Shown here in pieces: positions 3,699 through 39,318 of a stretch of DNA of 50,639 nucleotides. A model generated the notes under the pieces. That model made no database searches. It had not been told where the DNA came from and saw only the letters and a program-made list of their open reading frames with translations. A program made the position numbers and the translations under genes. Position 1 is the stretch's first letter. Each line of letters begins with the position of its first letter. The stretch lies in IMG/VR virus record IMGVR_UViG_3300045999_000972, positions 1 to 50,639 of that record. One strand, written 5' to 3'. This DNA comes from a virus.

Positions 3699-3882
3699 AT
3701 ACCACTTTACAGAGACGTATGAGGGTATGCGGGCGGCAAGGTTTGCCTCCGCCAGCGAAGCCCACAACATGGAGACCAACCTCAAGTGGCTGAGTCTGTC
3801 GTACAAAACCAAAATCATCAAACACAAACGCAAGGGTAATAGCTACCTTGTGTTGCTAGTGGAGGTACACAGTGGCACTTGA
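3676..3882 (+). CDS. Small hypothetical protein between terminase subunits, 68 aa
   Basis: The start is ATG 3676 (MSLPSAIEYHFTETYEGMRA), with GAGG 6 nt upstream, overlapping the small terminase by 23 nt. It also overlaps the GTG start of the large subunit by 11 nt. It is basic, with a C-terminal stretch KTKIIKHKRKGNSYLVLLVE that reads like a beta hairpin. No family recognised. The overlaps on both sides suggest coupled translation with the packaging genes. Confidence 0.6.
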   Translation: MSLPSAIEYHFTETYEGMRAARFASASEAHNMETNLKWLSLSYKTKIIKHKRKGNSYLVLLVEVHSGT

Positions 3883-5260
3883 CGTTAACTACACACCGCC
3901 CCCAACGGGTAAGAAATTCATGGCGTCCGACGCCAAGATGCGAGTACTGATGGGGCCAGTCGGCTCGGGTAAGTCGGTCACGTCATCGTTCGAGATTATC
4001 CGCAGGGCCAGTATGCAAGTGCCCAACGCTCAAGGGATACGCCGGACACGGGCGGCGATTGTGCGTGAGACTGCACGGCAGTTGCAGGATACGACCATCA
4101 AAACATTCTTGGACTGGTTTCCACCGGGGCAGTGCGGTCAGTACATGCGCACCACCAAAACTTACTTCTTCAAAGTGGGGGATGTCGAGTGCGAGATTAT
4201 GTTCCGTGCCCTTGACGATGCGGATGACGTAGCCAACTTGAACTCCTTGGAATTGACATTTGCTTGGTTTAACGAGTGCCGAGATATTCACCCCGACATT
4301 GTGGATGCGATGTCTAAGCGTATTGGGCGATTCCCGTCTGCCAAAGACGGTGGCCCAACGTGGCATGGGATGTGGGGCGATACCAACCCACCGACTATGG
4401 ATACGTGGTGGTACTACCAGATGGAAGGGCTTGACCCTAAAGATGGTGTGTCTGCCAACGACAACGGCTGGGATGTGTTCAAGCAACCGTCCGGTCGAAG
4501 CGTGTATGCCGAAAACGTGGAGAACTTACCCGATGGCTACTACGATACCCAAGGTCGCTCGGAAGAATACATCCGTGTCTACATCGACGGCGAGTACGGT
4601 TTGTCGTCTGCTGGTATGCCCGTCTACAAATACTTCAGACCGGACTACCACATGGGCAAGCAAAAGCTCCGCCACATCAACAACGGTGTGCGCCCTATTG
4701 TCATCGGCATGGACTTGGGACTCACCCCCGCCGCAGTCATCGGACAGCAAGACCCCCGAGGTCGGGCGCTGATACTTGGTGAGTGTGTATCGTTTGACAT
4801 GGGTATCCAGCGTTTCGTGCGCACCATGCTCAAGCCCATGATTTATGAGCGGTTCGGTGGTGCACCCATCCTAGTGGTCGTTGACCCTGCGGGTGTGCAG
4901 CGGGCGCAGACTGACGAGCGCAGTGCGGTTGACATCATCAAGGCTGAGGGATTGAAGGTCATCCCTGCCAAGACCAACAACGTGTCAGCCCGACTCAATG
5001 CGGTAGACGACTATCTCATGCGCCAAGTTGACGGCGACCCAGCGTTCTTACTTGACCCCGGGTGCACACAGCTTAAGGCTGCCATGATGGGCGGGTATAG
5101 GTACAAACCCAAGGGTGACGGCGACATCGACAAGAACAAACATTCACACGTAGCTGAAGCGTTGCAGTATCTGATGCTGCACATTGCCTCGGTAGGTGAA
5201 GGACATCACATGCCGCAGCGGCGCGACATTCGCCCTGTTGCATCTGCGGGGTGGACTTGA
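3872..5260 (+). CDS. terL: Terminase large subunit
   Basis: This is the packaging motor: an N-terminal ATPase followed by an RNase H-like nuclease. Walker A is GPVGSGKS (residues 28-35). The Walker B/catalytic-Glu region is LTFAWFNE (about 128-135). The nuclease part shows GMDLG (about 279), LVVVDPAG (about 334) and a C-terminal acidic/His segment (DGDIDKNKHSHVAEAL, about 415-430), as expected for two-metal cleavage. At 462 residues it is normal to slightly short. The start is GTG 3872, with GGAGG 6 nt upstream. A terminator follows, so terminase genes form their own transcription unit. Confidence 0.92.
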   Translation: MALDVNYTPPPTGKKFMASDAKMRVLMGPVGSGKSVTSSFEIIRRASMQVPNAQGIRRTRAAIVRETARQLQDTTIKTFLDWFPPGQCGQYMRTTKTYFFKVGDVECEIMFRALDDADDVANLNSLELTFAWFNECRDIHPDIVDAMSKRIGRFPSAKDGGPTWHGMWGDTNPPTMDTWWYYQMEGLDPKDGVSANDNGWDVFKQPSGRSVYAENVENLPDGYYDTQGRSEEYIRVYIDGEYGLSSAGMPVYKYFRPDYHMGKQKLRHINNGVRPIVIGMDLGLTPAAVIGQQDPRGRALILGECVSFDMGIQRFVRTMLKPMIYERFGGAPILVVVDPAGVQRAQTDERSAVDIIKAEGLKVIPAKTNNVSARLNAVDDYLMRQVDGDPAFLLDPGCTQLKAAMMGGYRYKPKGDGDIDKNKHSHVAEALQYLMLHIASVGEGHHMPQRRDIRPVASAGWT

Positions 5261-6288: not shown

Positions 6289-8346
6289 ATGGCTGGCCTA
6301 ACTTTCCTCCGTGTAGTCTCTAACGCTGAACTCGACAAACAAGACGAGGAAGCAGCGGCGCAGGCTTTGCAGGAACGTCAGAACCAACCAATGGTGTTGG
6401 GTCTGTCGCAGCATATTCGTATGTGCTGGGATGTGGCGAAGATTGCCAAGAAGCCTATTGAAGATGAGATGTTGCGTGCGCTACGTCAGCGTAACGGACA
6501 GTATGAGCCTGACAAGTTGCAGCAGATTAAAGCGCAAGGCGGCTCAGAGATTTACATGATGATTACTGAAGTCAAGTGCCGCGCAGCGGAATCTTGGCTA
6601 CGTGACATCTTGCTCGATAGCGGTACTCCACCGTGGGATATTGTGCCCACCCCGATTCCTGATTTGTCTCCCAACGACCGTCGTGAGATTCAAGACATCT
6701 TCGCAAGCGAAGTGTTGACGATGTTGCAAGAGAATCAGAAAGCTCCTACCAAAGAGGAGATGGCACAGATTAAAGAGATGGTCTCGCAAGACTATCGCTT
6801 CAAGATTTTGCAAGACGCACAGAACCGTGCCGACAAAATGAAGTTGAAGATTGAAGACCAGTTTGCCCAAGGTGGTTGGTCTGATTCGTTCAACGACTTC
6901 ATCACTGACCTCGTGACTTTCCCTGCGGCCTTCATCAAAGGCCCGATTGTTCGTCGTCAGCGTACTCTCGGCTGGAAGATGGTTGCAGGTCGTACGACTG
7001 TTGAACCAACTGAGCGTCTCGCTCCTGAGTTTGAGCGTGTTGACCCGTTCCGTATTTATCCTGAGCCGGGCATTACTCGCATTGAAGAAGGTTACTTGTT
7101 CGAGCATCACCCGCTTTCTCGTTCAGACCTGTCAGACCTTATTGGTGTGCCGGGCTATGACGAGGATGCTATTCGTCGTATCTTAGATGAAGGCTCTGGC
7201 CCATCTTGGATTAACGAAGACGTGGAACTCATCAAGAACGAGGAGGAGCGCAAGTTCTACTCGTACATGCGTCCGACCGATGTGTTCGACGCACTTGAGT
7301 TCTGGGGTAAGGTCTCCGGCAAAATGCTTCGTGAGTGGGGTCTGACTGAGGAAGAAGTTCCTGATGAAGCCCAAGAGTATGACGCCAACGTCTGGATGAT
7401 TGGTAACTACGTCATCAAGGCTGTGTTGAACTATGACCCACTGGGTCAGAAGCCTTACTGCAAGACTTCGTTCATCAAGTGCCCCGGCGCTTTCTGGGGT
7501 AAGGGTATCCCTGAAATCATCGAAGACATTCAGAACGTCTGTAACGCAGCGGCTCGTGCTCTCGTGAACAACATGGGTATCGCTTCTGGCCCTCAGGTCG
7601 AAGTGAACCTAGAGCGTATTCCTCCGAACGAGGACATCACACAGATGTCACCTTGGAAGATTTGGCAAGTGACCAACGACCCTGTGGGTTCGAGTGCACC
7701 TGCTGTACGCTTTACACAGCCTGAAGACAATGCCAACACGTTGGTAGCTGTGTACGATAAGTTTGCTCGTCTGGCAGATGACCACTCTGGTATCCCTGCC
7801 TACCTGTACGGCAACACCGATGTGCAAGGCGCAGGCCGCACGTCGTCTGGTCTTTCTATGTTGATGGGTGCTGCTGGTAAAGGCATCCGTCAGGTGGTTG
7901 GTCACATCGACGGTGATGTGATTAAGCCCATTGTCCAACGTCAGTTCGTGTACAACATGCGCTATGACGAGGACGAATCTATCAAGGGCGACGTTCAAGT
8001 CGTGGCCCGTGGCGCAGTTAACTTGGCTGTCAAAGAGACTGTCAACGTGCGCCGCATCGAATTCCTCAACGCAACCGCCAATGAAATCGACATGTCGATT
8101 ATGGGTCGGGATGGCCGCGCCGCGATTCTTCGTGAAGTGGCTAAAGGGTTGCAAATGCCTGTGGACGAACTTATTCCATCTCGGGACAAACTCGCTTATC
8201 AGACCCGCGTAGCAGCGGCTGCGGAGCAAGCTCAAGCACAACAGGCTGCACAGCAGCCCGCTGGAGCAGCACTCCAACCTGATGGAGCACCCAAAGGTGG
8301 AATGGAATCGAATACAGTCATGAATCGTAGTGGAGGTCAGCCGTGA
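6289..8346 (+). CDS. Portal (head-tail connector) protein
   Basis: 685 residues, the size of podovirus-type portals, which form the dodecameric ring at the packaging vertex. It has a long acidic helical N-terminal part, the usual central body (FITDLVTFPAAFIKGPIVRR; DPFRIYPEPGITRIEEGYLF; PYCKTSFIKCPGAFWGKGIP; VCNAAARALVNNMGIASGPQ) and a Gln/Ala-rich C-terminal tail (EQAQAQQAAQQPAGAAL) that may form the barrel or crown. It lies after the terminase unit and before scaffold and capsid, as expected. Confidence 0.88.
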   Translation: MAGLTFLRVVSNAELDKQDEEAAAQALQERQNQPMVLGLSQHIRMCWDVAKIAKKPIEDEMLRALRQRNGQYEPDKLQQIKAQGGSEIYMMITEVKCRAAESWLRDILLDSGTPPWDIVPTPIPDLSPNDRREIQDIFASEVLTMLQENQKAPTKEEMAQIKEMVSQDYRFKILQDAQNRADKMKLKIEDQFAQGGWSDSFNDFITDLVTFPAAFIKGPIVRRQRTLGWKMVAGRTTVEPTERLAPEFERVDPFRIYPEPGITRIEEGYLFEHHPLSRSDLSDLIGVPGYDEDAIRRILDEGSGPSWINEDVELIKNEEERKFYSYMRPTDVFDALEFWGKVSGKMLREWGLTEEEVPDEAQEYDANVWMIGNYVIKAVLNYDPLGQKPYCKTSFIKCPGAFWGKGIPEIIEDIQNVCNAAARALVNNMGIASGPQVEVNLERIPPNEDITQMSPWKIWQVTNDPVGSSAPAVRFTQPEDNANTLVAVYDKFARLADDHSGIPAYLYGNTDVQGAGRTSSGLSMLMGAAGKGIRQVVGHIDGDVIKPIVQRQFVYNMRYDEDESIKGDVQVVARGAVNLAVKETVNVRRIEFLNATANEIDMSIMGRDGRAAILREVAKGLQMPVDELIPSRDKLAYQTRVAAAAEQAQAQQAAQQPAGAALQPDGAPKGGMESNTVMNRSGGQP

Positions 8347-9673: not shown

Positions 9674-10582
9674 ATGGGATTTCCCGTAGCTGCTGGTCGT
9701 CCGAATTATTCGGGCAACTTCATTCCAGAGATTTGGTCTGGCAAACTTATTGAGAATTTCTACGACGCCACTGTGCTCGCAGCAATTTCTAACACCAACT
9801 ATGAGGGCGAGATTCGCCGCATGGGTGACACGGTTAACATCCGTACCACTCCTGAAATCTCTATCAAGACTTACGTTAAGGGCCAAACCCTGAGCGTTGA
9901 GAATCCTGATAAGCCAAAGATTCAGTTGGTTATCGACAAAGGCGAGTACTTCGCTTGTATCGAAGACGACGTGGACAAGGTTCAGTCTGACGTGAACATG
10001 ATGGACACTTGGTCTAAAGACGCTTCTGAGCGTATGAAGATTAAGATTGACCAACGCGTTCTGACAGACATTCTTCCAGACATTTCTGCTTTGAACAAAG
10101 GCGCAACTGCTGGTCGTATCACTGGCAACATCGACTTGGGCACAACTGGTACTCCAATTGCTATCACCAAGACTAACGTGCTTGACTACATCGTAGACAT
10201 GGGCACTGTGCTTGACGAAGCTAACTGCCCTGAGGGTGACCGCTTCCTGATTATTCCTGCCAAGATGGCTGGCATGATTAAGAAGTCTGACCTGAAAGAC
10301 GCATCTTTGACTGGCGACAGCGTGTCTGTGTTGCGTAACGGTCGCTTGGGTATGATTGACCGCTTTACTGTGTACATGAGCCACAACTTGTCTGTGACTT
10401 CTGGCAAGTTCAGCATCATTTCTGGTCACAAGATGGGCTTCACTTTTGCCTCTCAAATGACTGAGATGGAGTCTTTGCGTGCTGAGTCTACTTTCGGTAA
10501 CGTCATCCGTGGCTTGCAAGTTTATGGCTACAAAGTGGTGAAACCTGAAGCATTGGCTCAAGGTATCGTTACTTTGGCATAA
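9674..10582 (+). CDS. Major capsid protein, HK97-fold (putative)
   Basis: 302 residues, beginning GFPVAAGRPNYSGNFIPEIW, with the typical early segment 'fipeiWsgkl...fydatvlaai' of podovirus-type coat proteins. A beta-rich E-loop/P-domain-like region follows (VNIRTTPEISIKTYVKGQTL), and a C-terminal part ends in an aromatic/basic stretch (VIRGLQVYGYKVVKPEALAQ). It follows the scaffold gene and is closed by a strong UUCG hairpin. No N-terminal prohead peptide is evident. The coat call is firm by position and appearance; fold class is inference. Confidence 0.85.
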   Translation: MGFPVAAGRPNYSGNFIPEIWSGKLIENFYDATVLAAISNTNYEGEIRRMGDTVNIRTTPEISIKTYVKGQTLSVENPDKPKIQLVIDKGEYFACIEDDVDKVQSDVNMMDTWSKDASERMKIKIDQRVLTDILPDISALNKGATAGRITGNIDLGTTGTPIAITKTNVLDYIVDMGTVLDEANCPEGDRFLIIPAKMAGMIKKSDLKDASLTGDSVSVLRNGRLGMIDRFTVYMSHNLSVTSGKFSIISGHKMGFTFASQMTEMESLRAESTFGNVIRGLQVYGYKVVKPEALAQGIVTLA

Positions 10583-28936: not shown

Positions 28937-31048
28937 ATGGCTCTAAATTTCGGACAACTGGTCAGCGGGGCTGGAATTGTTGCGAATCGTCAGCGGCAAG
29001 CTGAAGACGCAATGCTCCAGCAACGCCAGACTTTGATGCAAGTACAAGAAGCGAATCGCTTGATGGAGATTCGTGCGCGTATGGGCGAAGGTGCGGTTGA
29101 CGCAGCCAATGTTGCTATGCCAGAGTTTGTGCAATCCCCGGGCACTGTCATTGGTAACCCCAATGCCGCTCCCGCTTCCGCTCCCGCTTCCGCTCCCGCT
29201 GCCGCTAACGCAGCGCCTGTAGCTGCTGCTCCTACACGACCTGTAACACAACCCTCCAATGCCGTACCTAGTGCGGTTAGACCACCTGCTGCTCTTGCTG
29301 TATCACAACTTCCTGCGGCTGCGCCACGTAGTGTTGACCAGTTGGCTAACGTACCGACCGAGCAGTTGACTGCTGCTGAGTTCCAAGCTCTATCTCCACA
29401 AGCAAGACTGCAACGCTTGCAGAATTTAAACCGTGACCGACAAGCTGCGCTTGACCGCACACAACTAGGCAAAGCTCCTGCGGCTGCGGCTGACGTAATT
29501 GCTGGTGGCCCATACAACGCTATTGCTGGTGGTTTGACTTGGGCTGGTAACGCTCTCGGTGTCCCACGTATCGGTCGTGCTCTTGGCATTTATGACTCTG
29601 ATGTCACTCGTGTTGAAGTACCAAAAGTGGGCACTGGTTCTGCTACGCCTTACTACGACATGGTTCGTCAGGCTGAGGCAGCCAATCAACCCGTTAATGA
29701 AGCGCAACTGCTTGAGCGTTTGAGAACTGGCGAAGCTACCCGTACACGGGCTGCCCAACAAAAGTACGAAGCAGACATCAAAGCTGCACCGCAGACCTTC
29801 CAGAAGTTAGAGGAAAAATACAATCTCCCCACTGGTTTGCTCAACGCTGTGATGATGGCTGAGTCCCGTGGTATTCCTAACCAAACATCTCGTGCTGGTG
29901 CACAAGGCTACTTCCAGTTCATGCCTGATACTGCGAAGCAGTACAAAGTCAAAGTCAACGACCTGAACTCTGAAGCAGATGGTGCGGCACGTTTGCTGCG
30001 TGATTTGCTGAGGTCATCCAACGGTGATTTGCAGACTGCTTTGGCTGCATACAACTGGGGTATTGGTAACGTGCAACGTCAAGGCATGGATAAGATGCCT
30101 GCGGAAACACGCAACTACATCCCTAGGGTTCTGTCCTTTATGGGCGGTAATCAAGCTCCGACAACCGCTGCGCCAGTTAAGACAGTTCCCCAAGCGGTAG
30201 CCACTGGTACTGCTACTGAAGTTGCAACTGCTGCGTCTAATGCTGTACCAGTCCAGCCTTCTAAAGATGGCACGATGTACGGCCCTGCTCAGCTTGACGC
30301 AAGTGCCCGCAACCCGCAGATTCAACAGCTTCTGACGACTCGTGCTGCATTGCAAAAGCAAGTGGCGTTGTTCAACCAGTACGGTATGGGCGACAAAGCA
30401 TGGGAGGCGGTGTCTAAGATTCAGGCCATTGACCTTGGTATGTATAAGAACCAAGCTGACATCGGTGTGTATGAGGGTGCTACTACTGGCAACTTCAGCC
30501 GTGCTATGTCTGTGCTGTCCACCTTTACTGGTGCACCACATCAAGTTCTGCAACGCCCTGATGGCAAGTTCGACTTGTATGTCAATGGTAAAGTTGCTAA
30601 GGCTGCACTCGAAGGCTCGCAAGTTGAACAACTTGTCCGAACCCAAGTGGATTCTGAATATCGCCGACAGCTTGCCAGTCTGCAAGTCGAGCGTGGTACA
30701 GAAGAATTCAAATCCAACTTGCGTATTCGGGAAGAAACCAACAAGGCTGTTTCTAACCAAACGCTACAAACTGCTCGTGAAATTCAACTTGAACTCATCA
30801 AGGGTAACGTCAAACTGGCTGAGAAAAAACTTGAGTTGTCTGGCTTTAAGGCAATCGGCACTAACTCAGGTGACGGCAAAGTAATTTACAGCAACGGCGT
30901 TGGTGACATCTTTGTGGTTGATACACAAAACAAGACAGCGACCATCAACGGTGCTACAGTAGACCTTGGCGTAAACGCTCAACGAGTGTCTGGTGTTGAT
31001 AGGAGCATTTGGAGTGCGGTGAACGCTCCTCAACAACAAGGTAGGTAA
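28937..31048 (+). CDS. Ejection protein with lytic transglycosylase domain, 703 aa
   Basis: N-terminal helical part, then a Pro/Ala/Ser tract (about residues 75-135, with SAPASAPASAPA encoded by a 12-bp repeat near 29167-29200). The SLT domain lies at about 290-400: LEEKYNLPTGLLNAVMMAES has the catalytic Glu at about 308, followed by GAQGYFQFMPDTAKQY and LAAYNWGIGNVQRQG. The C-terminal half is long and helical (QVDSEYRRQLASLQVERG). Such proteins open peptidoglycan locally during DNA entry. Equivalent in place to T7 gp15/gp16. Confidence 0.82.
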   Translation: MALNFGQLVSGAGIVANRQRQAEDAMLQQRQTLMQVQEANRLMEIRARMGEGAVDAANVAMPEFVQSPGTVIGNPNAAPASAPASAPAAANAAPVAAAPTRPVTQPSNAVPSAVRPPAALAVSQLPAAAPRSVDQLANVPTEQLTAAEFQALSPQARLQRLQNLNRDRQAALDRTQLGKAPAAAADVIAGGPYNAIAGGLTWAGNALGVPRIGRALGIYDSDVTRVEVPKVGTGSATPYYDMVRQAEAANQPVNEAQLLERLRTGEATRTRAAQQKYEADIKAAPQTFQKLEEKYNLPTGLLNAVMMAESRGIPNQTSRAGAQGYFQFMPDTAKQYKVKVNDLNSEADGAARLLRDLLRSSNGDLQTALAAYNWGIGNVQRQGMDKMPAETRNYIPRVLSFMGGNQAPTTAAPVKTVPQAVATGTATEVATAASNAVPVQPSKDGTMYGPAQLDASARNPQIQQLLTTRAALQKQVALFNQYGMGDKAWEAVSKIQAIDLGMYKNQADIGVYEGATTGNFSRAMSVLSTFTGAPHQVLQRPDGKFDLYVNGKVAKAALEGSQVEQLVRTQVDSEYRRQLASLQVERGTEEFKSNLRIREETNKAVSNQTLQTAREIQLELIKGNVKLAEKKLELSGFKAIGTNSGDGKVIYSNGVGDIFVVDTQNKTATINGATVDLGVNAQRVSGVDRSIWSAVNAPQQQGR

Positions 31049-31056
31049 GGTGAATT

Positions 31057-34000
31057 ATGGCGACTAAAGCCCCGCAGTCATTTGAAAATCCTCTTTACTC
31101 TGACTCTGGTGGCTCAGTTGCCAGTCAGATGAGTCCGTATACCTTCCTGAATCCTGCCTCCTCTACGGGGGCAGATGCGCTTCAGAAGGGTCTTGCCGAC
31201 ATCGCAACGATGGGTCAGACTGCACAGCGGTTAACGCAGTTTGAACTGCCGCAGGTCAAGCGTCCTCCTGCTATTGCGTACAGCCCATCACAGAAGAAGT
31301 TGTTTGTACAAGGTGTCACCTTTGACGAGGATGACTCCGATATGACTCTGCGTGCGGAGCAGTTGCTTGACCGCCCTTCGGTGGGTATGCCACAAGGTGG
31401 TGACTGGGTAACGCTTACGCCTCAGGCATATGGTCAGATTGCCAACACAATCCGCAACCCCGGTCTTGGTCGCCTTATGTCCAAGAACTTCGGTATTGGT
31501 GTTGACCAGTTGCAGTTGCTCGCTGGTCGTGGGCTTCAGCTTGCTGGTGCAGAACAAACTGGTCAGGCTATCGTTGACCGCCAAATGGAAGACCTGCGTA
31601 AGAACCTTCCGTTCCGTCGTGAATTCACTGAGATTGATTCCACCAAGGGTGCTATCGAGTGGCTGGCTGCAACGGTTGCCCAACAAGGCCCGAACATCCT
31701 TGAGTCCGTAGGTACTGCGGCTGCTGGTTTCTTTGCTGGTACTGCCGCAGGTGGCCCGTTGGCTGGTGCAGGTGGTGCACTCGCAGGCTTGGCAGGTAAA
31801 ACTGCCTTCAAACAATCTGTACTCGCTGCCCTGAAGAAACGTGCAGCAGGTGAAGCTCTTGACGCAACTGAGACTAAGTTGCTACGTGAAGCCGCAGGTA
31901 TTGCTGGCGCAACGATTTTAAGTGTGGGTCAGAACTACGCCACTGGTGCGGCTGACATCTATGGTGAGTTCCGTGAACAAGGTTCTGGTGCTGATGATAC
32001 CAATGCTCGTCTTGCCGCTCTGTCTGGCGCAGTCCCCTATGCCGTCCTCGAATCTGTCCCTGAGTTCATTCTCGCCTCCCGCTTGTTTGGTGCTGGCGGT
32101 CTGTCCGCACGAGGTGGCGCACGGAACTTACAAGATATACAAGGCAAGACTTTCCTCGGGACGCAAGGCTTACGTGGTACAGAACTGCTCAAGCGAGGAG
32201 CAAAAGGTGCAGTCGTTGGCGGTACATCTGAAGGTGTAACTGAACTAGGACAAGAGAGCTTGCTCGTTGGTATGACGGGTCAAGACTTTGCTGACCCTGA
32301 TGTACAGAAGCGACTCATCGAATCCTTTGCTGCTGGTTTTGGTGTCGGTGGAACGATTGGTGCTGGTGCGAACCTACGACGTGGCCCTATCGGTAAACAA
32401 CCTACCAACTTGTTGAACCCCGGGCAGACTACTGACCCAACACCTAGCGACTCTCGTGAGATTGCTCCTATGGGTGGCCCAAGCCCCGCTGGTGGTATGG
32501 GCGCACGCCCTGACTTTGTGGCTGGTGCTGAAGGTGTACGCCGCTCAACTCCGGGTGACCGCATCTACACAGGTGAAGTTCAGCCTAACCAGTTCGGTGG
32601 TGCACAAGGTGTTCTTGACCTCGGTGGTATCCCTGTGGCAGAAGCCAAGGCTCGCAGTATGCAGGGCAATGTGCAACCACAACGAGTATGGGATGTAACC
32701 ACTCAGTCCTTCCGTGATGTCACTCCTGAAGAACTAGCCGCTCAAGTTGGCCCACAGCAGCAATACACCGACCCTAACCAGTTGGCTTTGCAGTTTGCCC
32801 CTCCTGCTCCTAGCGGTGTTGGGTTTACTGACCAAGCTGCCCCTGTGTTAAACCCTGCTATGCAGCAGGCTATGAATCTGGCGCAGAGTCGTCAGGCTCA
32901 GGCACAAGCTCAGTCGGCTGCTCTTGCCCAGCGAGAGGCAGACCTCAATAAGTTGCAAGTGCAAGCGGAAGCGCAGCGCCAACTCGACATTGCTCAACAA
33001 GCGATGGACGCGGCCCGGGCACAGCAGCAACAGACACAACAACAACTTCCTACGAAACCGCTGCCCGTGCGTGCACCCCAGCAGTTGGAATTGTTCAGTC
33101 GTAAAGAAGCTCCACGTCCTTCGCGTGCCGAGGGTCTACGCCGTGGTGTTGGTACACAACTTCCTGAACCAACCACTCCCGTGTTGCCTGTTCAAGACTT
33201 GCGCCGCAGTGCTCAAGTTCCGATGTTCACGCAGCAAGGTCAGCCTTCTGTGGCCGCCCTCAAGAGTGCAGGCACACGACAACAAGTTGTCCCAACAGTG
33301 CAGCAAGGCGCTACCCAGATTGCTCCGACAGGTGCTCCTGTTACTGCGGTTACTTCTGAAGCAGCCAAGGGTGCGGCACTCAAGAAAGAAAAGTCTGGCA
33401 CTATCACCTTTGAAGACGGCTCTGTATATACAGGGCAGTTGAAGAAGGGCGAGCCTAACGGTCAGGGTACTTTGATTTACTCCGACACATCCACTTACAC
33501 TGGTCAGTTCAAGAACGGTAAGCCTCAGGGCACTGGTCGCTTTGAAGATGCTGATGGCACGGTGTTCGATGGTCAGTTCGATGATGGTGACTTTGTTCAA
33601 CCAGAAGGAGAAGCAGATGCCGTTCAAGAGCCAAGCCCAGCGGAAGTACCTGTACGCCAACGAACCAAAGGTGGCAGCGAAGTTCGCAAAGGAGACACCG
33701 AAGGGGGCAAAGCTCCCGCAAAAGGTCAAGCCCTCAAAGCCAAAGAAAAAGTAGCCACTGAACCTACCGAGCCAACTGAGCCTACTCCTCCTAAGGGTGG
33801 TAAGAAGACCCTGAAGAAAGAGCCGAAGAAGACTGAGGCGAAAGCTGAAGCCGCACCGAAAGCAGCGAAGTTGCAGAAAGGCCCGAGTGGTTTGGCTGCA
33901 ATGGTTGGTCAGCTTATGGCTGCAACAGAGCAAGGCGCTGTGGTTGAAAGTCAGCCTGCCAAACGTGGTGCGCCAGTAACCTCGGCTGAAACCTTAGAGG

Positions 34001-37000
34001 CTAATGAAGAACTTGACTTGGCTATTGAGACTGCTGAAACAACTAAGAACGCAGCCAAATATGCTGAGGCTCTGTTTGATATTGTGTCTGCCTATGCCTA
34101 TGGAACAGAACGCTCATACCTACTGAAGACATCCACAAAGTTCTTGACGGATGAAGGTGGTGTACCGAAGGGTGACTATGTAGCCGCCTTACGTGAAGTT
34201 GCGTTGGACGCAGACGCCATCAAACCAAATTCCCGTCTGTATGGTTTGCTGGCTGATGCTGGCTTGCTCAACGATGTGAACGTCATGGCGAATGTACGTG
34301 TGCCCGGTGCTAAGGCAACGCAAGAAGCTGTGGTTGGTGAGGTCGTTGGTGCGAACTCTGAGATTACTGCTGAGGAAAGTCTTGCCAACTTCATTGACTC
34401 CAATCCGCAGTGGCCTAACCGCAAGCAGTTGGTTGACAAGCTCAAGAAACTGTACGCCAAGATTGATGACGACACCTTTGCAGTTGGTAAGCGTGGGCGC
34501 ATCAAGGACTTCTTTGACGCTGATGGAAACCCGTTGGTGACCCAACCTGCTGGTACGTCTTACTTCATCCCCAACACTGTGGCTGAGGAGAAGACTACCA
34601 AGTCTGATTTCGTATCCAAGCATGAGTCTGCACGCAAAGAGTTGCGTGACCTAGAAGATACCGAAGACCAAACGACACTGGATGACCTTCAGTTCGACCC
34701 GTTCTATGACCGCAAGCCTAACAGTGATGACGACTGGCGTGCCTTCCGTTCGGATGGTAAACCTCTGACTCCTATGAAGGCTGGCCCACTGCGCTTGTTC
34801 GCAGCCCGTGTCATCTCCAAGTACGCTCGTAAACCACGAGTGGCTGTGTTCGCCAACATCCAAGACATGAAGCGTAGCAACCCTGCCCTGTTTGAAGCGG
34901 CAGCAAAGGCACGTAAGGATGGCGACATCGAAGCGGTTAATGCCGCAGGTATGGCTTGGGGTGACAACGTGGTTCTGTTTGCAGACCTCATCCACTCTGA
35001 AGAACATGCTCGCTTCATCATTGCTCACGAGACTCTTGGTCACGTTGGCTTCCGTGGTTTGTTCAGCAGCCAAGCACTCGACAAGATTCTGCGGTTCGTT
35101 GCAGATGCTGACCCTCATCTCACACATGAGGCAAACATCTATGCGAACGGTAAAGGAATCCCATTCCTCGAAGCAGTCGAGGAGGTGTTGGCAGACCGTG
35201 CTGCTGCCATCGACAATAACACAGTCCTTCGTTTTTGGAACTGGTTGAAAGACCAACTCAACAAACTAGGCTTCTCGTTCAACGAGGATGCAGCACGCTA
35301 CCTCATCGGTCTATCACGCAAGTACATCCGTCAAGGCGTTGGTCGTAGTGAAGTAAACACCTCTGGTCTGTTCAAAGAAATCAACGAGGCACTGGCTACT
35401 GAGCAGTCTGACATTGAGGTGTTGCGCTTTGCCCAGTCTGCTGCTCAAGGCTCTGCCTACTTCGCACAGAACTTTACAAACCGTGACTTTGCCATCTACG
35501 GTGGTATTTCCCGCTCTATCCAAGACATCGTTGGGGCTTCTCAGAAAGCCGCTGAACTGCGTAAGCAGGGTGTTGGTACATGGAGAAACATTGGTAACGT
35601 AGCTCAGAAAATTCTTGATGGTATCCAAACGCAAGACAACATGGCTCGTAAGTCCAAGGGTTACTTCAACATCTTTAGGTTGTTGCAAGACCAAGCGGCT
35701 CGTCAGACTGAACTCAAGACTCAGTATGCTGAGATAACTAAGATTGCCCACGAAGCTAAGTTCCTTGGTTTCGGTGATGGCTTAACGCCTGAGCAAAGTG
35801 TCCGTGCTGGTGAACTGATGGCGTATGCAACGCTGTTCAAGATGAACCAAGTCTCGGATACCAAGGTCGCACAGATGGACAACATCGTGTTCTATGACCC
35901 TGACAACCTTGAGCCTGTGCCTAAGGTAAACGTGGAAGGATACAACCAGTTGAAGCAGGTTGGTCGTATGACCCCTGAGGAATTCCGTAACGGCTTTAAG
36001 ATTCAACAAGGCACTGAAGAACGCCCAATGACTGCCGAGTACAAAGCGGAACTGGGTGCGCAGCGGGACAGAGAACTTGCCATCATGGAAGCAGGTAAGG
36101 ACAAAGAGCTTGCCCGTCTGCAAAAGAAACTGGCTGGGGCTGCCAACGAAGAAGCTAAGCTAGAGTTTGGACTGCGCATCAAACGTCTTGAGAACAAGTA
36201 CGCCAGCAACGTAGAGAGCACCAAGCGTTTTTATACCAAGCAGATGAACGAGAAGACCTATGAAGCTCCTCGTATGACAGACTCACTTGACTGGTTCAAA
36301 GATGTTGATGGTACTGTAATTGAGAACGACGACGGCACTGTGACCTACACTGGTAAGAGCCTTGAGTATCAGGTGTACTTGCAGTTCCATGACGCCATCT
36401 CCAAGTCTGCCGCTGACGTGCTGATTGGTAAGTACCTCGGTGCTATCCATGAACAGAAGCGAGCCGTGAGTACTGGTATTGGCGTAGCGTTTAACCAGTC
36501 GTTGACTGCACAGGAAACCAAGTTCATTGAGGATGTGGTTGAGCAATACGACCGTATGCGTCTGAAGGATTCAGGCTACAAGAACAACCGCTTTGTGATG
36601 AGCGAAGCTGCACAGGAAGATGCTGACGATTGGTTGAACTACAAGTTCGGTCGTGCGTTCTACACTGACCTTGCTTTGAACGACATCACTTCGATGATTG
36701 AAGGCTACACTGCCGCAGAGGTTGACACGCTTGTGCGTGGTATGCGTAAGAAGTTGCGTACCAAGGTTGACCCTGACCTCGATGATGTGAACAGCAGTTC
36801 GATTTGGGCACTGGTACATCGTGTTGAAGAACGTGCGATGTTTGCCGCCTCTATCAATGACGACCAGTTCTACGCCAAGCGAACCATCGCTGGCTCATAT
36901 GTTCCTCTCATCCGTGAAGGTGATTGGCAAGTTCGTATCCAAGCCTACAAGACTGTCAACGGACAGGATGTTCCTGTTAAGTTGCGTCAGGGTCAGCAAG

Positions 37001-39318
37001 ACTCGTTGTTCTATGGCAAGGCTGGTAATCAGAAAGATGCTATGGAACTCCAGTCAGAACTGGACAACATCTTTGTAGGCGAGCACGACATGCGTGACGC
37101 TGATGGCAATATGCAGACAGTTAAGTTGCGAGCCATCGTATCGGCAGCAGAGCAGACTCCTGCCCTTGTGGACATCCTCCACTATGACGAAGTGATGTAC
37201 TCACTCAGCCGCTTGGGTATCAACATTACCCCTGAGCAACGCACGACCTTGGTTCAGAAACTCACATCACAGAACACCCGTGCTCGTGCAAACCTGAAGC
37301 GTTCGGGTGTAGCAGGCTGGGATAAAGATGTTGTCAAGAGTGCGTCGGCTTATCTGGAGCAGCAAGCCTATGTTGCAGCCAACAAAGAATTCCGTCACCA
37401 GTATGACGAAGTGCTGGACAACCCATACAACTGGCAAGGTGACCCAACTCGTTTGGAAGAACTGCGTGTCAAGTGGGAAGGCAGCACTGGCGAGGCTAAA
37501 GAGATTGCAGCCCGTGAGTATTTCCAAGAGAAGTTCTACTACGACAACGCCGTTGAAACTATTGACGGTAAGCGGGTAGAGCGTGGCAACTGGTACAAAG
37601 AACGTGCCAAGTCTTTGCTCGACTGGAAAGAATCCACAGGTGACATCGTTCACGCTGATGACATTTGGACAAACAACGAGTGGTCTGTTGCGGCTCGTAC
37701 ATGGGCGGCTCTTGCCCAACTCGGTGGCTCTATCGCTACTGGTGTGACGCAGATGATTTCGTTGCCGACCAACTCATGGGCGTACCTCTCAGCTTTCAAT
37801 CCGAAGAATGGCTTTGGCCTCGGACTGGGTGCAGGTCGTGCCGCCACATTGTTGTTCGACTATGGTCGTAAAGCAGGTAGCTTCCGCTATGCCAACCTTG
37901 ACTACATCAAGGCACAGATTAAGGAACTCCAAGACAATGGTAAGGACAAGAACAAAGACGGCTTGACGTTTGCCGAACTGAACTTCCTCCAAACCATGAC
38001 TGAGGAACAACGCCTTGATGCGGCACAGTTCAATGCTTTGACTGGTACTAGCCGTGGTCGTAAGATTACTAGCACCCCAATTGCGCAAAAATTTGTTCAG
38101 GTATGGATGTTCCCGTTCAGCTACTCCGAGCAGTTCAACCGTCGAACAACGCTCCTAGCAGCCTATCGTGGTGAGTATGACCGCCAACGTGCATCCGGCT
38201 TAGACCACAACCAAGCTGACCTTGCCGCTCGTGAAGCAGCTTCTCGTGCAGTTGATGCTACCCAAGGTGACTACGCTCAGTACAACCGCCCTGCTTTCTT
38301 CCGTGGTGGTTTGCAGTCGTTCGTCTACATGTACAAGCAGTACCCAATCCTGATGGTTCAGTTGTTGAAAAACATGAACTACGAAGGTCGCATCATCATG
38401 CTCGGGTCGTTGCTCTTGCTGTCTGGTGTGCGTGGCATACCGGGTTCTGACGACATCTTGGACATTGTTGACGGCATCGCACAACGCCTTGGCTTGAAGG
38501 TCGGCTCGATTGAAAAAGAGTTCGCCCGTCTGACCCGTAGCGTATTCGGTGATGAGTTGGCAGCAGAGATTAACCCAATCATGATGCGTGGTTTGCTTGA
38601 CCACTTCACTGGTCTTTCATTCTCGAACCGTTTGGGTCTTGGCGACATCATCCCCGGCACTGGTCTGCTTAAGCCATCGGCTACCAAGCAGGAGATTCTG
38701 CGTGAGGTGGTTAACATTGCAGGTGCACCAACATCTTTCTTGGTGGGTACGTTTGAGTATGCGTTCAACACATTGCCTGCCGTAGCCACAGGTCGTAAGG
38801 GTCTAGGTGCTTTGCTGACTGATAGTCCTGCGACTGCCATCAAGAACTTGGGTACTGCCTTTAAGTTCTACGACACTGGTGCGATTGTTGACACCAAGGG
38901 ATATGTTGTAGCGCAGAACGCAACTGGCTGGGAAATACTTGGTAAGGCTCTCGGTTGGTATCCATCCCGTGCACAGGCACAGATGGACTGGTTGATGGCT
39001 GACTCACAGGAACAAGCCTACATGTCCATGATTAAGACTGAGGCTACCCGTCAGGCAGTCGCCGCTCGTTTGTCGGGTGACGCTGAAGCTGAGAAGGAAG
39101 TCAAAGAGTACATCAAAGACTGGAACGAATCCACCAAGGGTACACGCTTGGAGATTCGCAACTTCGACAAGGGATTGAACCAAGCCTTCCGTGAAGCCAA
39201 GAAGCCACTCGCATTGCGTAGCCTCAAGTCGTCATCGAAAGGTGGTAGGGCAGAAGCCAAGGAGTTGCTACGCATCTACGGCGTAGACGAGGAAACCCTT
39301 TCGGGCATCCCCGACTAA
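31057..39318 (+). CDS. Giant ejection / large polyvalent protein with MORN repeats, 2,753 aa
   Basis: Residues about 220-260 and 285-300 are hydrophobic, Ala/Gly-rich. Residues 600-680 are Gln-rich coiled coil. Three MORN-type repeats (GSVYTGQLKKGEPNGQGTLI, STYTGQFKNGKPQGTGRFED, GTVFDGQFDDGDF) lie at about 778-848. A metallopeptidase-like motif, AHETLGHVGFRGLF, is at about 1322-1335, with downstream acidic EAVEEVLADRAA. The C-terminal third (about 2210-2500; TQGDYAQYNRPAFFRGGLQS, FVYMYKQYPILMVQLLKNM) resembles the associated domain of phage large polyvalent proteins. Last gene of the ejection block, so it is probably packaged and injected like T7 gp16. The final TAA overlaps the convergent gene. 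A second gene lies out of frame inside it (33617-33754). Confidence 0.8.
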   Translation: MATKAPQSFENPLYSDSGGSVASQMSPYTFLNPASSTGADALQKGLADIATMGQTAQRLTQFELPQVKRPPAIAYSPSQKKLFVQGVTFDEDDSDMTLRAEQLLDRPSVGMPQGGDWVTLTPQAYGQIANTIRNPGLGRLMSKNFGIGVDQLQLLAGRGLQLAGAEQTGQAIVDRQMEDLRKNLPFRREFTEIDSTKGAIEWLAATVAQQGPNILESVGTAAAGFFAGTAAGGPLAGAGGALAGLAGKTAFKQSVLAALKKRAAGEALDATETKLLREAAGIAGATILSVGQNYATGAADIYGEFREQGSGADDTNARLAALSGAVPYAVLESVPEFILASRLFGAGGLSARGGARNLQDIQGKTFLGTQGLRGTELLKRGAKGAVVGGTSEGVTELGQESLLVGMTGQDFADPDVQKRLIESFAAGFGVGGTIGAGANLRRGPIGKQPTNLLNPGQTTDPTPSDSREIAPMGGPSPAGGMGARPDFVAGAEGVRRSTPGDRIYTGEVQPNQFGGAQGVLDLGGIPVAEAKARSMQGNVQPQRVWDVTTQSFRDVTPEELAAQVGPQQQYTDPNQLALQFAPPAPSGVGFTDQAAPVLNPAMQQAMNLAQSRQAQAQAQSAALAQREADLNKLQVQAEAQRQLDIAQQAMDAARAQQQQTQQQLPTKPLPVRAPQQLELFSRKEAPRPSRAEGLRRGVGTQLPEPTTPVLPVQDLRRSAQVPMFTQQGQPSVAALKSAGTRQQVVPTVQQGATQIAPTGAPVTAVTSEAAKGAALKKEKSGTITFEDGSVYTGQLKKGEPNGQGTLIYSDTSTYTGQFKNGKPQGTGRFEDADGTVFDGQFDDGDFVQPEGEADAVQEPSPAEVPVRQRTKGGSEVRKGDTEGGKAPAKGQALKAKEKVATEPTEPTEPTPPKGGKKTLKKEPKKTEAKAEAAPKAAKLQKGPSGLAAMVGQLMAATEQGAVVESQPAKRGAPVTSAETLEANEELDLAIETAETTKNAAKYAEALFDIVSAYAYGTERSYLLKTSTKFLTDEGGVPKGDYVAALREVALDADAIKPNSRLYGLLADAGLLNDVNVMANVRVPGAKATQEAVVGEVVGANSEITAEESLANFIDSNPQWPNRKQLVDKLKKLYAKIDDDTFAVGKRGRIKDFFDADGNPLVTQPAGTSYFIPNTVAEEKTTKSDFVSKHESARKELRDLEDTEDQTTLDDLQFDPFYDRKPNSDDDWRAFRSDGKPLTPMKAGPLRLFAARVISKYARKPRVAVFANIQDMKRSNPALFEAAAKARKDGDIEAVNAAGMAWGDNVVLFADLIHSEEHARFIIAHETLGHVGFRGLFSSQALDKILRFVADADPHLTHEANIYANGKGIPFLEAVEEVLADRAAAIDNNTVLRFWNWLKDQLNKLGFSFNEDAARYLIGLSRKYIRQGVGRSEVNTSGLFKEINEALATEQSDIEVLRFAQSAAQGSAYFAQNFTNRDFAIYGGISRSIQDIVGASQKAAELRKQGVGTWRNIGNVAQKILDGIQTQDNMARKSKGYFNIFRLLQDQAARQTELKTQYAEITKIAHEAKFLGFGDGLTPEQSVRAGELMAYATLFKMNQVSDTKVAQMDNIVFYDPDNLEPVPKVNVEGYNQLKQVGRMTPEEFRNGFKIQQGTEERPMTAEYKAELGAQRDRELAIMEAGKDKELARLQKKLAGAANEEAKLEFGLRIKRLENKYASNVESTKRFYTKQMNEKTYEAPRMTDSLDWFKDVDGTVIENDDGTVTYTGKSLEYQVYLQFHDAISKSAADVLIGKYLGAIHEQKRAVSTGIGVAFNQSLTAQETKFIEDVVEQYDRMRLKDSGYKNNRFVMSEAAQEDADDWLNYKFGRAFYTDLALNDITSMIEGYTAAEVDTLVRGMRKKLRTKVDPDLDDVNSSSIWALVHRVEERAMFAASINDDQFYAKRTIAGSYVPLIREGDWQVRIQAYKTVNGQDVPVKLRQGQQDSLFYGKAGNQKDAMELQSELDNIFVGEHDMRDADGNMQTVKLRAIVSAAEQTPALVDILHYDEVMYSLSRLGINITPEQRTTLVQKLTSQNTRARANLKRSGVAGWDKDVVKSASAYLEQQAYVAANKEFRHQYDEVLDNPYNWQGDPTRLEELRVKWEGSTGEAKEIAAREYFQEKFYYDNAVETIDGKRVERGNWYKERAKSLLDWKESTGDIVHADDIWTNNEWSVAARTWAALAQLGGSIATGVTQMISLPTNSWAYLSAFNPKNGFGLGLGAGRAATLLFDYGRKAGSFRYANLDYIKAQIKELQDNGKDKNKDGLTFAELNFLQTMTEEQRLDAAQFNALTGTSRGRKITSTPIAQKFVQVWMFPFSYSEQFNRRTTLLAAYRGEYDRQRASGLDHNQADLAAREAASRAVDATQGDYAQYNRPAFFRGGLQSFVYMYKQYPILMVQLLKNMNYEGRIIMLGSLLLLSGVRGIPGSDDILDIVDGIAQRLGLKVGSIEKEFARLTRSVFGDELAAEINPIMMRGLLDHFTGLSFSNRLGLGDIIPGTGLLKPSATKQEILREVVNIAGAPTSFLVGTFEYAFNTLPAVATGRKGLGALLTDSPATAIKNLGTAFKFYDTGAIVDTKGYVVAQNATGWEILGKALGWYPSRAQAQMDWLMADSQEQAYMSMIKTEATRQAVAARLSGDAEAEKEVKEYIKDWNESTKGTRLEIRNFDKGLNQAFREAKKPLALRSLKSSSKGGRAEAKELLRIYGVDEETLSGIPD
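33617..33754 (+). CDS. Nested out-of-frame small gene, MPFKSxAQRKYLYA family, 45 aa
   Basis: ATG 33617, in the +1 frame relative to the giant ejection gene, encodes MPFKSQAQRKYLYANEPKVA, then AKFAKETPKGAKLPQ and a Lys-rich end, stopping at TAG 33752-33754. The 'MPFKSxxQRRYLYANxPxxAxxFxxxTPKgxxLP' pattern is one I know from small stand-alone phage proteins of unknown function. An AGAAGGAG Shine-Dalgarno lies 6 nt before the ATG. The giant protein reads the same bases as a low-complexity linker (EVPVRQRTKGGSEVRKGD). Family-like sequence plus ribosome site argue for a real overlapping gene; expression is unproven. Confidence 0.68.
   Translation: MPFKSQAQRKYLYANEPKVAAKFAKETPKGAKLPQKVKPSKPKKK

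Follow-up and report, generated by a model that had tools for sequence, protein, structure and literature searches.

The question raised by this locus is whether a short open reading frame lying out of frame within the gene of a giant virion protein is a gene in its own right, and what each of the two frames contributes. The DNA analyzed over its whole length (the window), a virus record of 50.6 kb, has a podovirus-like structural module that ends with the giant gene (Table 1). The C-terminal region of the giant matched the phrog_11358 profile (residues 2313-2713, E 3.7e-40), while phrog_10089 matched the related giants of L118 and L127 but not that of the window. An AHETLGHxGFRG motif (window 35020-35100, giant residues about 1317-1336), conserved in all giants of the family, may hint at a metallopeptidase-like domain of polyvalent proteins. 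Within the giant gene, the original prediction had placed a complete +1 reading frame preceded, at 6 nt, by its own ribosome-binding site, and its coordinates, frame and Shine-Dalgarno sequence were all found as described. The nested ORF (ATG...TAG), entered at giant codon 854 onwards, encodes MPFKSQAQRKYLYANEPKVAAKFAKETPKGAKLPQKVKPSKPKKK and, like its relatives, has its own start, ribosome site and stop. In the giant frame the same DNA reads DAVQEPSPAEVPVRQRTKGG..., directly after the Pfam MORN match, in agreement with the predicted linker behind the MORN repeats. With a probability of about 0.8, sequence comparisons point to this linker as a slot for one real, separately translated and exchangeable small gene in frame +1.

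Table 1. Coordinates of the features discussed, given for the window except for the cultured Elemovirus copy.
Feature	Position	Strand	Remarks
Terminase	3872-5257
Portal/head-tail adaptor	6289-8343
Major head protein	9674-10579
Transglycosylase virion protein	28937-31045
Container gene, giant ejection-type virion protein	31057..39318	+	2,753 aa; C-terminus matches phrog_11358
MORN-repeat region of the giant	33382..33588	+	residues about 776-844; Pfam MORN, phrog_7324; immediately upstream of the slot
Shine-Dalgarno sequence AGAAGGAG	33603..33610	+	6 nt before the nested ATG
Disordered Lys/Pro/Glu-rich linker of the giant	33616..33880	+	putative slot where small genes nest and exchange
Nested small gene, MPFKS family, phrog_1375-like	33617..33754	+	45 aa; +1 frame of the giant gene
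Elemovirus nested gene MPFKSKAQMKAC...	NC_055853 52379-52507 (L300 locus 8186-8314)		frame +1 of gp18

The nested protein matched the phrog_1375 profile (E 2.7e-4, residues 3-35), which bore out the claim that it is of a widespread phage type. Its family follows the pattern MPFKSxxQRxxLYAxxPxxA...TPKGxKLP... with a Lys-rich tail, and in a 28-member alignment the initial MPFKS, Q8, P17 and A20 were invariant. The phrog_1375 proteins of cyanophages, Streptomyces phages and many uncultured phages belong to the same sequence family; their stand-alone copies are ordinary separate genes, often unannotated, whereas the copy of the window lies wholly inside another gene in frame +1. The proposed check for stand-alone occurrence was answered positively by such separate-gene homologues, cyanophages included, and among cultured phages stand-alone relatives were found in P-RSP2, S-CBS2, C75C1, 023Pt_psg01 and Streptomyces phage FlowerPower. 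The copies of P-RSP2 (L011, 6001-6123), S-CBS2 (L012, 6001-6111) and C75C1 (L013, 6001-6105) are unannotated in the published records. An alignment-based scan of viral contigs returned at least 458 relatives; among the 80 kept, 19 lay out of frame inside ORFs of 1,166-2,470 codons and most others stood alone. This count leaves out a case within a terminase (L082), which, like containers of about 390 aa (L067, L085, L109 and L112), was excluded from the nested counts because the upstream part may be a mere ORF extension. A direct tblastn search of phages with the small protein was insensitive (5-9 records) and missed the elemo copy described below, which a profile found.

Giants 80-92% identical to that of the window were retrieved via their N-terminal part. 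Two of them (L009 and L010) encode a small protein identical to that of the window, while L002-L008 and L018 carry, at the same site and in the same frame, a protein beginning MPLKKGSS (MPLKKGSSNKVVSQNVSKIMREYKAGGKLG...). This replacement family, present also in L139 and others, matched phrog_2423 (E 1.4e-7, residues 1-22); its homology to MPFKS was unsupported (E 0.075), and its assignment to Pfam DUF6496 was rejected (16.6 versus a curated cut-off of 24 bits, relatives being without a match). At greater distance, giants 64-65% identical (L021/L022) hold a diverged MPFKS version in the slot and one only 27% identical (L036) holds another, preceded by AAGGAGGAG, the nested site and frame being common to giants 27-92% identical. 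A set found without using the small gene was assembled from a distant giant alignment (A3), with which viral contigs were scanned for peptide patterns remote from the slot (AHE[TA][LIM]GH[FV] and [QS][YF][VIL][FY]M[YF]K[QM]). Among the 55 giants of this set that span the slot, some of them near-duplicates and hence not statistically independent, 47 held a nested member of either family, always in frame +1. The eight gene-less giants fall into about five lineages (L142/L199, L149, L162, L189/L192/L198 and L196); the search for stand-alone compensation in genomes without the nested gene gave one weak (42%) MPLKKGSS-like candidate, an empty answer proving little. With these eight absences and so little compensation, the function of the nested gene appears dispensable or replaceable. 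Only one family was present in each genome of the close and distant relatives compared, the two occurring together in 0 of 240 loci. Free loss of the small frame among relatives, the check suggested at the outset, was the opposite of what was found, since most relatives either retain the frame or have another small gene in its place; the nested pair is no one-off either, being old and common in the giant family of the window and recurring in a second one. In the relatives L161-L209, many nested copies end in a lengthy basic C-terminal extension that is conserved and brings them to 80-98 aa, which suggests a subfamily specific to the nested state.

The boundaries of exchange are clearest in L007 and L010: the 120 nt that precede the start codon are identical, the small genes themselves match at 35-61%, which is what unrelated sequences give by chance, and beyond the stop codon identity returns to about 90-100%. 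Replacement, on this alignment, apparently spans start codon to stop codon and is by an unrelated family. On a FastTree phylogeny of 63 giants (C-terminal columns excluding the slot), in which some long branches are unsure, the occupant swaps between MPFKS and MPLKKGSS at least seven times, or changes 12 times if absence is counted; the tree is unrooted, so that gain and loss are not distinguished. The proposed origin by capture of the small gene with its own ribosome site fits these data, with the amendment that the captured unit would be exchangeable, an unrelated gene replacing it exactly in close relatives. In L144 (7998-19373) several ordinary small genes interrupt the giant at the slot, leaving separate genes of 862 and 1,888 codons. 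The break, a real rearrangement or an assembly error, hints that insertions are tolerated in the linker.

Every one of the 59 nested starts examined is preceded, at a spacing of 3-13 nt, by a Shine-Dalgarno match of 4 nt or longer. Matches of at least 5 nt precede 54 of the 59, whereas among 9,221 control starts, the remaining +1-frame ATG/GTG codons of these genes, the share is 5.2%; matches of at least 6 nt precede 39 of the 59, versus 0.4% of controls. Some nested copies use a GTG start with the Shine-Dalgarno site retained. Substitutions in the two frames were compared in 118 pairs of 72-98.5% nucleotide identity, which share ancestry, so that the following ratios are a description rather than a test: pN/pS was 0.38 (MPFKS) and 0.25 (MPLKKGSS) in the small frame, versus 1.54 and 2.05, respectively, in the giant frame of the same bases, and the small protein was better conserved than the giant in 117 of 118 pairs. 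Between the window and L009, three bases differ in the overlap; none alters the small protein, and each alters an amino acid of the giant. The same holds in the second giant family, where L306 differs from L307, L308, L309 and L311 by 1-3 bases in the overlap, every one silent in the small gene and every one changing the giant.

The outer frame was open in every nested case. Among stand-alone MPLKKGSS genes, in contrast, the frame in container phase was open over 40 codons in 0 of 72 (the other alternative frame in 31 of 72), so that nested copies differ by a stop-free frame; as nested copies are open by way of their recognition, the comparison shows a difference and not how the change arose. 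For stand-alone MPFKS genes the corresponding values were 14 and 16 of 60. Read together, these sequence data indicate that the overlap in the window is probably a genuine overlapping coding pair, with the inner frame under purifying selection and the outer frame intact, and that the giant probably needs only an open frame here, its amino acids hardly mattering. The expectation that both frames look functional was borne out: the small protein is constrained by purifying selection, and the giant frame, passive in the overlap, by the need to avoid stops. Nesting is always +1, in giants of different families, although in stand-alone copies the alternative offset is open no less often; common descent, or recombination carrying flanks along, would explain this constancy.

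In the second giant set (L123-L135 in part, phrog_32588), MPFKS is likewise nested at +1. When the profiles of both giant families were compared, the sole similarity lay in 31 columns where each reads the small gene out of frame; resemblance of giant proteins within such a linker can thus be the imprint of another gene. A separate scan that started from one giant of the second family found the nested gene in all five loci where the slot region was detected. To this family belongs, unlike the container of the window, gp18 (3,694 codons) of the cultured Elemovirus phages of Flavobacterium sp. BAL314, which share the nested arrangement, the small gene being unannotated and the four elemo types identical over the nested stretch. 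No AGGAG-type site was found before the elemo nested start, as expected for a Bacteroidota host. In L229 and L233 (2480-10087), MPLKKGSS is nested at +1 in a 2,536-codon giant of another PHROG group (phrog_14770), which adds one more type of container.

Both small families are Lys/Arg-rich. AlphaFold2 predicted for MPFKS short helices at residues 6-15 and 17-26 with a loose basic tail (mean pLDDT 83), and for MPLKKGSS two longer helices at lower confidence (69). No solved structure resembling the predicted two-helix model was found, and BFVD matches to the model were exclusively uncharacterized phage proteins, mostly of the same family. Stand-alone copies of phrog_2423, the family that replaces MPFKS at the identical nested site in close relatives, mostly follow a portal gene without interruption (a portal-like gene in 53 of 72 loci, represented in its cluster by phrog_1216); for stand-alone MPFKS the commonest annotated neighbors are portals, then terminase. 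Because stand-alone copies adjoin portal genes, the most economical guess is an internal head or portal-associated, DNA-contacting role. The two families presumably do the same job.

Several other readings were weighed. Chance would have produced a +1 open frame in a Lys/Pro-rich linker that happens to resemble a basic phage peptide, and when codons were redrawn with the giant's protein and codon usage fixed, this frame remained open over 45 codons in 36% of the versions of the window's giant. The open frame alone was for this reason dropped as proof of a nested gene, and the case rests on specific homology to a large stand-alone family, Shine-Dalgarno enrichment, two-frame substitutions (pN/pS <0.4 for the small protein, >1.5 for the giant) and retention in 47 of 55 diverged giants, which together place the nested gene, as judged from sequence, beyond chance; the homology and the two-frame pattern refute a chance frame, whose probability is negligible. 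A programmed +1 frameshift, stimulated by the Shine-Dalgarno-like site, would instead yield a truncated giant of 850 residues plus a basic tail. Such motifs do stimulate frameshifting in some bacterial genes, and both the constant offset and the preceding motif agree with it. This reading is nevertheless very improbable: a start codon (ATG/GTG/TTG) is conserved precisely where the stand-alone proteins begin, its distance from the Shine-Dalgarno site is typical of initiation (mostly 4-9 nt), exchanged units start with that codon, and in 20 of 59 cases the small frame is closed by a stop no more than 5 codons ahead of the start, so that a shift would have hardly any space.

As a third reading, the small gene could be a selfish hitch-hiker, mobile or neutral, that is kept because deletions in an essential giant gene are costly, and repeated exchange, precise boundaries, lineages without the gene and the linker of L144 split by ordinary genes are all compatible with it; purifying selection, identity of 54/54 or 45/45 residues while the giant diverges, the lack of a mobility gene and stand-alone copies in the head module make it unlikely. 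A translated product directed at the host, as a takeover or counter-defence peptide, rather than at the virion head, is a possibility at odds well short of even. Phage proteins that are small and basic frequently target the host, the exchange of unrelated families recalls accessory genes, and some stand-alone copies lie near tail-fibre or lysis genes, but portal and terminase genes are the most frequent annotated neighbors of stand-alone copies, and the nested gene would be co-expressed with a late virion gene.

Under the preferred reading, a slot in the linker occupied by one exchangeable gene, the linker of a giant, late-expressed, DNA-ejection-type gene would host a single small gene in frame +1. 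As this gene has its own Shine-Dalgarno site, start and stop, ribosomes initiating inside the giant mRNA would make a free, basic, two-helix protein of 45-60 (up to 100) aa, while those reading the giant would translate the same DNA as disordered linker, its sequence nearly irrelevant if stop-free. The occupant would be exchanged as a unit, presumably by recombination between conserved flanks, MPFKS and the unrelated MPLKKGSS repeatedly replacing each other at the same boundaries. Nesting in a giant ejection-type gene would tie the dosage and timing of the small protein to the giant. The least certain step is that the product may be a DNA- or portal-associated internal head protein sharing the virion interior with the giant. 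With modest confidence, we also favor the broader view of an out-of-frame socket: small genes that lack homology but can stand in for each other would be swapped there from start to stop, each re-coded to keep the outer frame open, and the socket would have arisen in, or moved between, giants without other detectable homology.

Overlapping genes are usually thought frozen, because each frame is disturbed when the other changes. In this case the overlapped gene seems to be among the more mobile parts of its locus, repeatedly replaced wholesale while an outer frame of about 2,700 residues stays unbroken, so that a fully overlapped gene may act as an exchangeable cartridge. The origin of overlapping genes, by capture into a disordered linker versus de novo overprinting, becomes testable from existing sequences, and a conserved late gene has been missed by annotation pipelines in many uncultured podovirus-like genomes. 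The elemo phages on Flavobacterium offer a cultured system for asking what the small families do. A host search among bacterial genomes gave one weak MAG match, and within the literature library covered nothing was found on either small family or on nesting in such giants.

Compared with known systems, the container shares its C-terminal region and its position at the end of the structural module with the PLxRFG or 'DarB-like' giants (phrog_11358, phrog_10089; Pseudomonas F116 type), for which an injected antirestriction function is a candidate from the annotation of relatives. The cultured F116-type giants differ in lacking such a nested gene in the stretches examined (F116, 8P, Y11, Y7 and Mel-JY34). 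The classical nested phage genes, phiX174 B, K and E and Rz/Rz1, likewise give two proteins from one stretch of the same strand by internal initiation; those are fixed pairs, whereas here unrelated small genes appear to swap at one nested site with the outer frame preserved.
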